The notes under the pieces: model-generated | Seen by the model: only the letters and a program-made list of their open reading frames with translations | Databases searched by the model: none | Told to the model about the DNA's origin: nothing | Shown: positions 10-9,889 of the stretch, in pieces | How positions within the stretch are numbered: position 1 is the stretch's first letter | How the letters are laid out: every line of letters starts with the position of its first letter | From: Candidatus Gastranaerophilales bacterium | GTDB taxonomy: Bacteria; Cyanobacteriota; Vampirovibrionia; Gastranaerophilales; Gastranaerophilaceae | Direction of reading: 5' to 3' | DNA: 11,579 nt | Assembly: GCA_900548405.1 (NCBI GenBank) | Contig: UNSJ01000053.1 | Location: forward strand, 1-11,579 | Position numbers and translations under genes: made by a program

Positions 10-28
10 TTTTATAATGTTTATAAAT

Positions 29-95
29 AACCCATTGTTGCGGGTCCAGCGGCTACGCTGGTTGCTCCTTTCATATAACTTCTTTATTATAACAA
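29..95 (-). repeat. Promoter-leader repeat, copy 1 (67 bp, one mismatch to copy 2)
   Basis: Bases 36-95 are identical over 60 bp to 3104-3163. The match extends to 29-95 against 3097-3163 with a single difference (T35 versus A3103). On the minus strand the unit holds the -10 box, an AAAGGAG motif, a perfect 6-bp hairpin (arms 46-51 and 56-61, four-base loop) and the start of a small ORF. That ORF runs from ATG at 74 to TAA at 21 and reads MKGATSVAAGPATMGYL. The GC-rich core stands out in AT-rich surroundings. It is oriented away from oppF, towards the gene outside the window. Confidence 0.9.
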
Positions 96-114
96 ATGTA
101 ATGTTATATTTCAA
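86..114 (-). promoter_or_regulatory. Sigma70-type promoter of the gene beyond the left edge
   Basis: The minus strand shows TTGAAA (114-109), a 17-bp spacer and a perfect TATAAT (91-86). The same boxes and spacing precede copy 2 of the repeat, although the spacer sequence there differs. Shared boxes with unshared spacers argue that the promoter is functional and not merely copied along. Confidence 0.65.
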
Positions 115-2381: not shown

Positions 2382-2400
2382 TCCTATTTGAGGATATAAT
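2377..2400. terminator. Weak bidirectional hairpin between smpB and the pilin gene
   Basis: ATCCT (2381-2385) and AGGAT (2391-2395) pair around a five-base loop. ATTA (2377-2380) and TAAT (2397-2400) extend the stem past one bulged base. The structure spans both stop codons of the convergent genes. It lacks a following T-run on either strand, so it may shield mRNA ends without terminating transcription. Confidence 0.25.
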
Positions 2401-3060
2401 ACGCTGAACATCCCCAGCCATAATAATCTCCCTCACATGTTCCATCGCCTTGTGTCAAAGTTACGAAAGTACCATCGGCAGCTCCCCACCTTTGTCTATA
2501 TCCTTGTGCAACTCTTACCTGATACGCTTCGCCGTCGAAAATAGCCGCAAAAATATCAACACCTATTCGGTTAGGCAAAGCTGCTCCGTTTACATCACAT
2601 ACAATTATAGTATTTCTGCCGCTGCCGTCAAAACATATTGTTCCTCCGCTTACTGTATTCATACAAACTCCGCCGCCTCCAACCGCCCCTAAGCTGTTTG
2701 TCTGCTTAACACCTTTATAATTATAAACAGGACGGTTTTCTTTCCAGCAGCCTTGCAGAATATCAAGATTTGCCTGACAGACTTTATCTACTTTAATATA
2801 TTTGGCAAATGTTTCACCTATTTTTTGTTCTGATGATAAATCAACTTCATCAAGAGACATTAACAATGCTGCATTAGAAATATCCGAATACATCTTTTTC
2901 CAGGCAACAATCATTTCTTTTTCTTTTTTATGGGCTATCAGTGAAGGCAAAGTCAAAGCAGCAACCACACCAATAATACCAAGCGTTACCAATACTTCGG
3001 CGAGAGTAAATGCAGGAGCTTTTAGAGTGCCCCCCCCCCGACATAACTAAATTTTCTCAT
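2384..3060 (-). CDS. Type IV pilin-like protein, out of frame at a G10 tract (probable phase-variable gene, OFF)
   Basis: The body encodes a prepilin. Its class III signal ...KAPA|FTLAEVLVTLGIIGVVAAL has Phe1 and Glu5 of the mature protein, a hydrophobic helix and a helical spine. A C-terminal globular part follows, rich in cysteine and glycine, with DVNGAALPNRIGVDIF as in many pseudopilins of this lineage. The mature form would be 208 aa. A good ribosome binding site (GAAAGGAG, 3074-3067) lies six bases before ATG at 3060. From that ATG the frame reads MRKFSYVGGGAL and hits TAA at 3022, because the G run (3039-3030 on the minus strand) has ten bases. With 11 G it would read MRKFSYVGGGGTLKAPA and continue into the pilin; with 8 G it also would. 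The first in-frame start downstream is TTG at 2992, inside the helix and not credible. Slipped-strand phase variation is the leading reading; a homopolymer sequencing error or recent inactivation is the alternative. Confidence 0.85.
3030..3039 (-). repeat. G10 homopolymer in the start of the pilin gene
   Basis: Ten consecutive G on the coding (minus) strand lie 18 bases after the pilin ATG. Such a run is very unlikely by chance in an AT-rich genome. It sits exactly where a length change by one switches the signal peptide in or out of frame. Confidence 0.95.
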
Positions 3061-3142
3061 AAATTGCTCCTTTCAATGATTTTAAACTATATGCACAACC
3101 CAATGTTGCGGGTCCAGCGGCTACGCTGGTTGCTCCTTTCAT
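3047..3142 (-). CDS. Possible 31-aa leader peptide overlapping the pilin start
   Basis: Between the pilin promoter and the pilin ATG a small ORF runs from ATG at 3142 to TAG at 3047. It reads MKGATSVAAGPATLGCAYSL and then eleven more residues, and overlaps the pilin start by 14 bases in another frame. Its ATG begins 11 bases after the -10 box, so it would be almost leaderless, like other genes here. The first 13 residues are the same in copy 1 (ATG at 74), but because the DNA there is identical this gives no independent evidence of protein-level selection. It could couple or attenuate pilin translation, or be a chance ORF inside a structured leader. Confidence 0.3.
   Translation of the reverse strand: MKGATSVAAGPATLGCAYSLKSLKGAIYEKI
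3064..3075 (-). promoter_or_regulatory. Pilin ribosome binding site, inside a 12-bp direct repeat
   Basis: TGAAAGGAGCAA contains the AAAGGAG Shine-Dalgarno sequence, ending six bases before ATG 3060. The same 12 bases occur 66 bp upstream at 3130-3141, spanning the leader ORF start. This site fixes ATG 3060 as the intended pilin start, although that frame is at present interrupted. Confidence 0.75.
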
Positions 3143-3163
3143 ATAACTTCTTTATTATAACAA
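3097..3163 (-). repeat. Promoter-leader repeat, copy 2 (upstream of the pilin gene)
   Basis: This copy matches 29-95 with one mismatch; 3104-3163 is identical. It holds the -10 box, AAAGGAG, and the hairpin CCAGCG-TAGC-CGCTGG (3129-3114 on the minus strand). Downstream of the repeat the leaders diverge before each reaches its own ribosome binding site. The 5' untranslated region of the pilin message would be about 90 bases. Confidence 0.9.
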
Positions 3164-3182
3164 TTTTTTTGAGACTTTTCAA
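3154..3182 (-). promoter_or_regulatory. Sigma70-type promoter of the pilin gene
   Basis: TTGAAA (3182-3177), a 17-bp spacer and TATAAT (3159-3154) form a near-consensus promoter, the strongest in the window. It is identical in boxes and spacing to the one at 86-114. It faces away from the formyltransferase promoter, whose -35 box starts six bases beyond it. Confidence 0.7.
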
Positions 3183-7497: not shown

Positions 7498-8448
7498 ATG
7501 GAGAAAAGAATAGTAAAAACAGAAAATATTTCTTTTAAGTTAGTGGAAATTCCTTTGACACGCAAAGAACTGCGAAATATTCTTAATTACCGCATTCCCT
7601 GTTTATGCTGCGGTCATGAAATGATTCACCCGGATACTTATACCGAGCTTATTGAAAACCCGCTTTTAGCATCAAATGCTTTAACAGTTATACCTGTTTT
7701 AGAGCCTTATGAAAAAATTATGTATCCTGTTGAAAGGCAGGTATTTAATATGCTCAAAAACTTATCTGTTAAGTATCCTGACAAAAACTTTCAGCAGCTT
7801 TTAATGATGAAAAAAGACGTTCATGAGCTTGCTCTTGTAAGAATTCAGAGCATAATTTTTAATAAGATAAGCTTTTACAGAAGAATTCTACCGGAAAAGG
7901 AAGCTCGCTGGCTTCGTTCATTAATGATAAAAACCAATGACATAATATTTGATCCCGCCCCGAAAAAACCTTTCAGCAGAAGAATTTTTATTACAAAAAT
8001 CAAAAGAATAGTAAAAGATATTCATAACATAAGAATGAAAGATGAAATTATTGAAATTGCACGAAGATTGCCTCGTTCAAGCGATGAAGTATGCGCCTTT
8101 GTCGTTAAAAACGCACGAAAACGTCCAGAAATCATAGCTCTTAATCTCATACATCCTGCAGTTGGAACTTTTGAGCATCTTCAACCTAAGAGTTTAAAAG
8201 GCGCAAATAATTCATTAAACTTTGCGCTTGAATGTTCATACTGCAACAATTCACGACATCATTACCCTTTATCCGTTCAAATTGAAGAAAATCCTTATAT
8301 GCCGCAAAATGCTCAGCTTCACATTGATAAGCTGATTTCACTCTGTAAAAAAGGAATAGGTAAAAAAGAATATATTGAAAATCTTCGAGAGGTTCTATTT
8401 AACCTTTCTTATGAAGAAATTGACCTTGATATTTCTAAGCTTAATTAG
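7498..8448 (+). CDS. HNH-like zinc-knuckle protein, first of a tandem paralogous pair
   Basis: The 316-aa protein is not one I can name. Its C-terminal part holds FEHLQPKSLKGANNSLNFAL followed by ECSYCNN. This is the HNH/beta-beta-alpha-metal pattern, with E226-H227, N241 and the C246-x2-C249-N250 knuckle at the spacing of HNH nucleases. A second cysteine pair, CLCCGH (C35, C38), lies near the N-terminus, so the four-cysteine zinc site would be completed across about 190 mostly helical residues. A motif PFSRRIFITKIKRIV (158-172) and LPRSSDEVCAFVVKN recur in the next gene. The final HNH position is not clear here (CNNSRHH), so nuclease activity is uncertain. It could be a cytosolic DNase, or a protein using the fold only for binding. 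No signal peptide is seen. Confidence 0.8.
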   Translation: MEKRIVKTENISFKLVEIPLTRKELRNILNYRIPCLCCGHEMIHPDTYTELIENPLLASNALTVIPVLEPYEKIMYPVERQVFNMLKNLSVKYPDKNFQQLLMMKKDVHELALVRIQSIIFNKISFYRRILPEKEARWLRSLMIKTNDIIFDPAPKKPFSRRIFITKIKRIVKDIHNIRMKDEIIEIARRLPRSSDEVCAFVVKNARKRPEIIALNLIHPAVGTFEHLQPKSLKGANNSLNFALECSYCNNSRHHYPLSVQIEENPYMPQNAQLHIDKLISLCKKGIGKKEYIENLREVLFNLSYEEIDLDISKLN

Positions 8449-8494
8449 TCAGTAACACTTTATTTACAATATAGCAAAAAATTTAAATCAGGTG

Positions 8495-8500
8495 TATTTT
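8495..8500 (+). promoter_or_regulatory. Candidate -10 box before the second HNH-like gene
   Basis: TATTTT ends six bases before GTG 8507, the same distance as at the genes at 161 and 1929. The -35 position (TAGCAA, 8472-8477) is poor. The element mainly helps to choose GTG 8507 over GTG 8492, which would lie inside the promoter. Confidence 0.25.
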
Positions 8501-8506
8501 GTAATT

Positions 8507-9889
8507 GTGAAAATTGCACCAATTACTTTAAATAATATTTATCATAAAAGAAACATTGAGAATAATCATACTGATTATTCTCAATATAGGGTACCTGTAT
8601 TGAACTCAAATCTGCAGGATAAATTTGTTCCGTCATTTTCAGGTTCTTTTATTAATCTTCACAAATCTACGTTTAGAAATTATGCACAAAACAGGCACAT
8701 TGGCTGCATATACTGCAATCGTCATATGTTTACAAACAAAGAAAGAGATTCAATCTGCAAAACTTTCAAAGATCAGCCTTCCGCAGTTTTCACAACTTTA
8801 ATGGGCAGCTTCTTTGATTATTTTGATGAAGCTGGTATTGAGCTTCTCAATAAAATGGATAATATGTCAATGAGTTATCCAAAAGCAAAAATAAACAAAA
8901 TCTTACAGGCTTTAAGCCCTGACTCGGAAGACAGACTTATTGACTTGCAAAAACAAACTTTTGGAGAAATAATTAATCTGAAAAAACTTCTTCCCGAAAG
9001 TTCACGCTCAGAACTTGAACGTCTGATACAAAATTCTTATGATTGTATTAACGGTAAAGCATTCATACAAGATTACAGTGCTAAAGAATTTAATTACCAG
9101 TTAAAAAGACTTTCAGAGTCTCTTAATAAGCCTCAAACAACAGCCTATGTAAATAATATGGCTGATTTATTAACTCATCCGATTTACAAAGCAGAAAACA
9201 CACCGCTTAATAATAAAATTATGTCAAATGTTCTGAGGACAACAAAATCACCCCATTACAATATTGATTTGACAAGTAATAATGCTAAAGAGAAAGTTCA
9301 ACTTTTCATCATAAACAAGATAAAAAAAGCAGCTGAAAATGAAAACAATACAACTATTATTAATCTTTGCGATATAACTAAAAAAAGGCTTTTAGGACAA
9401 CCTGCATACTCAAAATTCAGTAATAAAGCATTTACCTACAAATTAAATGAAATTTTGGGAAATTCATCAAGTACTGACGAAATAAAAGAAATATTTAACA
9501 ATATCTGTAACAAACTTCCGAAATCAAGCAACAGCATTGACGCTTTTATTGTAAAAAATAAAGATGCAACAAATATGGCAATTATAAATAATCTGCTTGA
9601 TCAATATATGGTTACCATTGAACATATAGTTCCCTCAAGCAAAGAAGGCGCAAATGACATCAGCAACTGGGCACTTGCTTGCAAAAAGTGCAACGGTATT
9701 CATGGAAGCAGCGATATAAAAACGAATTATCCGTTTGACAGAGAAGCACCTCAGGAATATTTTAATATAATAATTGATGACTGCAATAACAAAAACTTTT
9801 TTAACCCTAAAGATATTATAAAGATGGCAGATAACTTTTATAAAATTACAGACATAAAAGTTGATTTATCAAAATTAAAAGTTGATTAA
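8507..9889 (+). CDS. HNH-like zinc-knuckle protein, second of a tandem paralogous pair
   Basis: The 460-aa protein (465 aa if GTG 8492 is used) is the better preserved HNH-like member. It has TIEHIVPSSKEGANDISNWAL followed by ACKKCNGIHG, giving E372-H373, N387, C392-x2-C395-N396 and His399. Histidine to asparagine is 14 residues and asparagine to cysteine 5, exactly as in its neighbour. An N-terminal CIYCNRHM (C67, C70) would supply the other half of a zinc site, more than 300 residues away. The middle is helical and contains an internal repeat of the motif YSAKEFNYQLKRL (190-202) as FSNKAFTYKLNEIL (304-317). Start GTG 8507 gives MKIAPITLNNIYHKR, a more natural N-terminus, and PSFSG follows at 42-46. 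It lies 58 bp after the first paralogue. A metal-dependent nuclease is likely by family pattern; its target is unknown. Confidence 0.82.
   Translation: MKIAPITLNNIYHKRNIENNHTDYSQYRVPVLNSNLQDKFVPSFSGSFINLHKSTFRNYAQNRHIGCIYCNRHMFTNKERDSICKTFKDQPSAVFTTLMGSFFDYFDEAGIELLNKMDNMSMSYPKAKINKILQALSPDSEDRLIDLQKQTFGEIINLKKLLPESSRSELERLIQNSYDCINGKAFIQDYSAKEFNYQLKRLSESLNKPQTTAYVNNMADLLTHPIYKAENTPLNNKIMSNVLRTTKSPHYNIDLTSNNAKEKVQLFIINKIKKAAENENNTTIINLCDITKKRLLGQPAYSKFSNKAFTYKLNEILGNSSSTDEIKEIFNNICNKLPKSSNSIDAFIVKNKDATNMAIINNLLDQYMVTIEHIVPSSKEGANDISNWALACKKCNGIHGSSDIKTNYPFDREAPQEYFNIIIDDCNNKNFFNPKDIIKMADNFYKITDIKVDLSKLKVD

Follow-up and report, generated by a model that had tools for sequence, protein, structure and literature searches.

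Phase variation is best known from pathogens, and surface-glycan genes are among its usual targets. In Campylobacter jejuni the phase-variable poly-G runs of such genes are about as long as those described here; this set is not known to include pilin genes, and the organism is not known to have mismatch repair. In Neisseria meningitidis, repeat variation in 115 genes has been confirmed by deep sequencing (PMC5084427). The closest known system is the G-tract switch of the sortase-dependent pili of Bifidobacterium breve UCC2003, in which runs of G11 and G10 leave the genes annotated as off and the loss of one G turns them on (PMC9187656). At one of these loci the culture contained 93.4% G10 and 6.5% G9, and the same study warns that annotated run lengths can be wrong (PMC9187656).

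Here, we examine a G10 tract in a stretch of 11,579 nucleotides (the window) from a Candidatus Gastranaerophilales bacterium. The tract lies at the start of a type IV prepilin-like gene and, on the sequence evidence assembled below, is quite probably a slipped-strand phase-variation switch. The initial annotation had considered phase-variable pilins to be undescribed for this kind of organism; our search of the literature, with subscription papers and preprints outside its range, likewise found no account of them. A relative from termites (Melainabacteria) is reported to have pilA, pilB, pilC, pilT, and pilD, and the accessible part of that report makes no mention of tracts (PMC5877343).

Results

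A Prepilin Gene Split between Two Reading Frames

The ATG of the gene (3060-3058, minus strand) is situated 21 bases before the G10 run (table 1), and its frame reads MRKFSYVGGGAL before it ends at the TAA 3024-3022. Past the run, the prepilin frame reads TLKAPA-FTLAEVLVTLGIIGVVAALTLPSLI... and is open for 214 residues to the stop at 2384. From the ATG to the F codon of FTLAEV there are 50 bases, which leaves a remainder of 2, so a run of 11 or of 8 G would join both frames. These readings bear out two earlier statements about the gene, namely that its start is put out of frame by the G10 and that 11 or 8 G would connect the ATG to the prepilin signal. In the window, the TAG 3049-3047 closes the prepilin frame to any start before the run. 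Reinitiation past the stop was also discarded, there being no ATG, GTG, or TTG in the window's prepilin frame between the run and the motif; the same holds for 43 of the 51 genes in which this spacing is at most 60 bases.

Table 1. Features of the prepilin locus and of its repeated leader in the window
Feature	Position	Strand	Remark
Second copy of the 103-nt promoter/leader repeat	12..114	-	84% identical
Prepilin gene: RBS and ATG, 7 codons, G10, then prepilin body in another frame	2384..3060	-	Out of frame at the assembled length
FTLAEV of the prepilin cleavage/methylation motif	2993..3010	-	
TAA ending the ATG frame, two codons past the last full codon of the run	3022..3024	-	
G10 tract (C10 on the plus strand)	3030..3039	-	Exactly 10 G
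TAG in the prepilin frame, upstream of the run	3047..3049	-	Excludes an upstream start in the prepilin frame
Ribosome binding site (RBS) AAAGGAG	3067..3073	-	
103-nt direct repeat copy: promoter-like site and 5' leader	3080..3182	-	
Promoter-like site TTGAAA-17-TATAAT, TG before the -10	3154..3182	-	Consensus match only

The run is not due to chance: none of 200 dinucleotide-preserving shuffles contained a G10, and the window itself has no other run of at least six G (5 overlapping matches versus 0.44 expected). The ATG gives no prepilin at G10, as would be true of a decaying pseudogene frozen off by its run. Against this account, the 214 codons past the run are intact, tens of genes with an open downstream frame are likewise off, and in-frame relatives exist; we therefore judge decay to be highly improbable. 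The predicted protein aligns over its full length, at 91% identity, with its closest relatives among the best 120 of 4592 protein matches, and since the 214-residue frame is open and this identity extends along the whole length, no second disabling change is seen in the gene. Other disabling mutations had earlier been named as one of the findings that would speak against a switch.

The assignment as a prepilin derives from several lines of evidence. The FTLAEV motif is present with its Glu at +5; the NCBIfam model TIGR02532 is passed with 19.7 bits (cut-off 16.3), and the score of 20.4 bits for N_methyl (PF07963) falls 0.8 bits under the cut-off of 21.2. A structure model built from 42 aligned sequences (mean pLDDT 89.7) has a long N-terminal helix at 9-57 and a beta-rich head. 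A profile search of solved structures returned the N-termini of geopilin, PilA, and GspG chains, together with one unrelated ice-binding chain, and a Foldseek comparison of the model with the PDB gave no match with E < 0.001. Viral contigs searched with the protein P0001 yielded no match. In 62 of the 196 listed homologues that have the motif, GGG or PPP stands ahead of it. Six of the proteins (P0005, P0010, P0016, P0158, P0196, and P0201) share an extra stretch, FTLAEGATHVA/GATHLA..., ahead of a second FTLAEV, which gives the appearance of a prepilin signal duplicated on either side of a short dispersed insert.

Elsewhere in the window, the neighboring gene encodes a formyltransferase, the best relative of which among 12 loci is 72% identical, and two adjoining genes (7498-8448 and 8492-9889) have HNH-type motifs (PF01844).

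A Repeated Promoter-like Site and Leader

The -35/-10 pair at 3182-3154 agrees with the consensus at 11 of 12 positions, in a region that has 5 such sites versus 3.2 expected. It belongs to a direct repeat, the two copies of which are nearly identical for about 60 bases from the -10 hexamer on, including a CCAGCG...CGCTGG hairpin. The copy at 12-114 probably points to a gene past the left end of the window that would be a second member of the set. The sequence AAAGGAGCAA is found twice on the minus strand, at about 3128-3145 (before the hairpin) and at the RBS 3067-3073, as if direct repeats flanked the leader element. Folding of the leader was no better than that of shuffles (z 0.16), an Rfam scan of the window gave no match, and a pattern derived from the leader repeat, possibly an ill-chosen one, matched 0 of 322 loci.

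In the genomes G006 and G007 the 300 bases upstream of many tracts are at least 90% alike between nonorthologous genes, and the downstream sequences are unlike (e.g., L306, L280, L318, and L277). On these alignments, the promoter/leader together with the run is a dispersed cassette in both genomes. Six G006 contigs (C8, C10, C15, C16, C42, and C43) end within 50 bases of a tract, as if the assembly had forked at the run or at the adjoining repeated leader.

Long G/C Runs across the Group

In 1.2 Mb of sequence (800 kb of G008 and 400 kb of G004) there are 30 G/C runs of length 6, 3 of length 7, 1 of length 8, 1 of length 9, 14 of length 10, 17 of length 11, and 4 beyond. The long runs in this sequence are a distinct class and not the tail of a distribution, and 25 of the 37 runs of at least 8 are hosted by prepilin starts. 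Among 276 genomes sampled evenly out of the larger family of G001, runs of at least nine G occur in 223 and are absent from 53; G001 itself has 89 such runs and the maximum is 176 (G211). A further 39 genomes, taken from a list of relatives outside this draw, have at least one run in 28 cases (median 2, maximum 30). The earlier restriction of the switch to a single gene was hence too narrow, the runs being a genome-wide trait of the group, and the reading as phase variation itself stands.

The fetched loci contain 294 distinct runs. A strict prepilin rule captures 110 of these and a further 30 lie within 700 bases of a prepilin motif; of the rest, 131 touch another open reading frame (ORF) and 23 touch none. 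From the 131 non-prepilin tract ORFs, 30 (mostly longer ones) were picked by hand and scanned; 23 had a Pfam match, and at least 16 are surface-glycan genes by domain reading, with glycosyltransferases, LicD, pyruvyl transferase, AlgX-like acetyltransferase, FkbM methyltransferase, and TupA among their domains. In three of the loci (L134, L111, and L319) two enzyme domains are joined (the pairs being GT8-LicD, GT2-TupA, and GT8-PIG-L), and the run is at or near the junction; a slip there might drop the second domain.

Prepilin Genes Are Mostly Assembled One Base Out of Frame

For 112 prepilin genes from 23 genomes and the window (24 sources, with 50 of the genes contributed by G006-G008), the start was chosen by its RBS alone and the frame was then scored. 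At the assembled length, 17 were in frame, 46 had a remainder of 1, and 49 a remainder of 2. The prepilin frame was open from the run to the motif in all 76 genes with a spacing of at most 120 bases (34 expected by shuffling) and in 21 of the 36 with a longer spacing (0.7 expected). After exclusion of the 15 genes in which it closes before the run there are thus 97 in which it is open back to the run, so that translation must pass through the run from the upstream ATG; 12 of these are in frame at the assembled length. Removal of five more, with a stop in the leader or a non-ATG start, leaves 92 genes, of which 11 are in frame (P 2e-6 versus one third, relatedness ignored); counted by leader clusters, the figure is 6 of 44 (P 0.003). 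Mixed on and off states at about the frequency of chance, a feature that is common in contingency loci and not required of them, were accordingly not found. When all runs with open frames on both sides are taken together, 37 of 70 rows are in frame, these being tract-strand rows that include prepilin genes and chance frames, the plus strand of the window among them; the off-frame bias is therefore strongest in the prepilin genes.

The offset is also directional. One base less would bring 31 of 39 genes of G006-G008 into frame, whereas elsewhere 35 of 53 need one more. This rule, one base off with a lineage-specific direction, is a testable regularity that is new to us. Could it be produced by errors of length, the true run being in frame and the assembly off by one? 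Lengths of G runs are hard to sequence, and the length annotated in B. breve proved not to be the most frequent one (PMC9187656). But the offset is found in many assemblies from unrelated projects and takes opposite signs by lineage, so that a systematic error would have to add a base in some and drop one in others; there is very little chance that such errors account for it.

Free switching, in turn, does not fit these data, the off state being too common against an expectation of one third and the offset having a sign. An alternative is that slippage occurs in expression, the one-base-off length being the working state from which RNA polymerase or the ribosome, slipping some of the time, would give a low, steady amount of prepilin from many genes. 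The constancy of the offset direction within lineages speaks for this, as does its persistence while the run length varies: in G007 the runs are of 10, 11, or 12, yet 18 of 27 genes share one offset (9.4 expected on permuting the lengths of all 27 genes, closed ones included; p 0.00025), and in 5 of the 6 genes with a run of 10 the flank past the run is one base longer, which keeps the offset. It is also favored by the position of the stop in the ATG frame, which lies within three codons of the run in 59 of the 85 out-of-frame open genes versus 37 of 85 for the third frame. However, both signs of the offset occur among related genomes, and G and C runs serve alike (73 of the 92 prepilin genes have a run of G on the coding strand and 19 a run of C), as slippage in DNA would allow. 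Natural in-frame alleles exist, runs of 7-8 are almost missing while pure runs of 10-11 are kept, and the mid-gene runs of glycan genes are often in frame. Moreover, the known slippery motifs named in PMC3711429 are short heptamers or A/T runs. On balance we regard slippage in expression as an unlikely explanation of the locus, though a better one than either length error or gene decay.

Run Length Changes between Close Relatives

G006 and G007 are 94% alike at the locus tested. Among the eight best of their 20 tract pairs the run length differs in seven, one of which (L252/L235) has weak downstream similarity and may consist of paralogues; 15 of all 20 pairs differ, the lower-ranked ones being paralogue matches. 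In L298/L290 the run is of 13 or 14 with no gap in the 250 bases on either side, and the protein is correspondingly open or stopped. An AlgX-like pair (L309/L261) and a prepilin pair (L006/L007) also go from open to stopped, and tandem paralogues within L201 exhibit the same change.

The leader of the window is found in frame in proteins of other contigs, P0122 (MRKFSYVGGGGTLKAPAFTLAEG) and P0003, and with one residue changed in the in-frame P0128, these three alleles being known from protein only. Judged from protein, P0146 and P0153 look like G10-type alleles that gene callers have misread from a wrong upstream start, since their KGAIYEKI is the translated RBS region. No weight was given to P0011, which combines a G9-type reading with a second change of frame and may be erroneous.

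In the related genomes, then, the single in-frame length that the initial annotation had set against a switch was not seen: 12 of 97 open-frame prepilin genes are in frame and G006 and G007 differ by single Gs. The one-G changes of state between conserved flanks, the in-frame relatives, and the concentration of runs in prepilin and glycan genes all argue for phase variation.

Mismatch Repair Genes

In 62 genomes of our own choosing, which are not phylogenetically independent sets, MutS1 scored above the cut-off in 35 of the 36 tract-rich genomes and MutL likewise in 35 of 36; in the 26 tract-free genomes the figures were 10 for MutS1 and 11 for MutL. The presence of both in the tract-rich genomes makes fast switching through loss of repair unlikely. 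In about half of the tract-free genomes MutL and a full MutS1 are absent or divergent, and hardly any tract-rich genome shows this; were phase variation due to loss of repair, the opposite pattern would be expected.

Discussion

Several properties of contingency loci are found here. The repeat is pure, overlong, and placed at the start of coding; its length decides whether the reading is complete; lengths differ between close relatives with conserved flanks; and the runs are concentrated in surface-structure genes. Phase variation is the best explanation of the G10, a judgment of comparative strength in which every length is that of an assembly consensus. Ribosomes would start at ATG 3060 and, with 10 G, would meet a stop right past the run and make no prepilin (off); the gain of one G or the loss of two in replication would join the frames (on). 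The gene of the window would be one of a large repertoire, each genome having tens of run-bearing genes for prepilins and surface glycans. Since the prepilin genes are usually off in the consensus, only a few would be on in any one cell. We infer that slippage in replication is the cause, and also the reversibility, rate, and surface display of the switch and the small number of genes on per cell.

The lineage-specific direction of the offset and the presence of mismatch repair genes leave some room for slippage in transcription or translation. Either the prepilin genes are anchored one slip from the on state, with a lineage-specific bias of slippage, or the off length is of use through slippage in expression. 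The former is our preference, given that the run serves in either orientation, that there are alleles in frame, and that lengths of 7-8 hardly occur. A possible, and for now tentative, extension is that the prepilin genes form a default-off library, in which tens of pilin genes would be held by selection one base off, in a direction specific to the lineage, and a few would be displayed through rare slips. In its strongest form, no less tentative, slips in DNA would produce a heritable high state while slips of RNA polymerase or ribosome would supply a little pilin from the off length.

If the reading as phase variation is true, slipped-strand switching diversifies the surface of a commensal lineage in the cyanobacterial phylum that has hardly been cultured, with tens of switched genes per genome and its mismatch repair genes present. 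It would also explain many truncated or misstarted calls of pilin genes.

How does this system compare with those already described? Programmed frameshifting and transcriptional realignment of the dnaX kind resemble it in the homopolymer, the conserved offset, and the stop soon after; the cases named in PMC3711429 involve heptamers or A/T runs, whereas the runs here are of G or C, with offsets of either sign and natural in-frame alleles. Slipped-strand phase variation is a known mechanism, and the larger finding is the genome-wide set of G runs in the pilin and glycan genes of this lineage. Unlike what is known of C. jejuni, the tract-rich genomes have MutS1 and MutL, and pilin genes of the group bear runs. 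N. meningitidis similarly has many simple repeats in surface genes, but these are of mixed types, with effects mostly other than on/off switching of the frame, whereas here G/C runs switch the frame (PMC5084427); it is also a pathogen, in contrast to the uncultured commensal lineage considered here. The likeness is greatest with B. breve UCC2003, again a gut commensal with G runs in pilus genes that are annotated as off (PMC9187656). Yet its pili are sortase dependent and encoded in two clusters, whereas in the present lineage type IV prepilin-like genes are involved, many per genome, with the run at the very start of the gene and the direction of the offset set by lineage.
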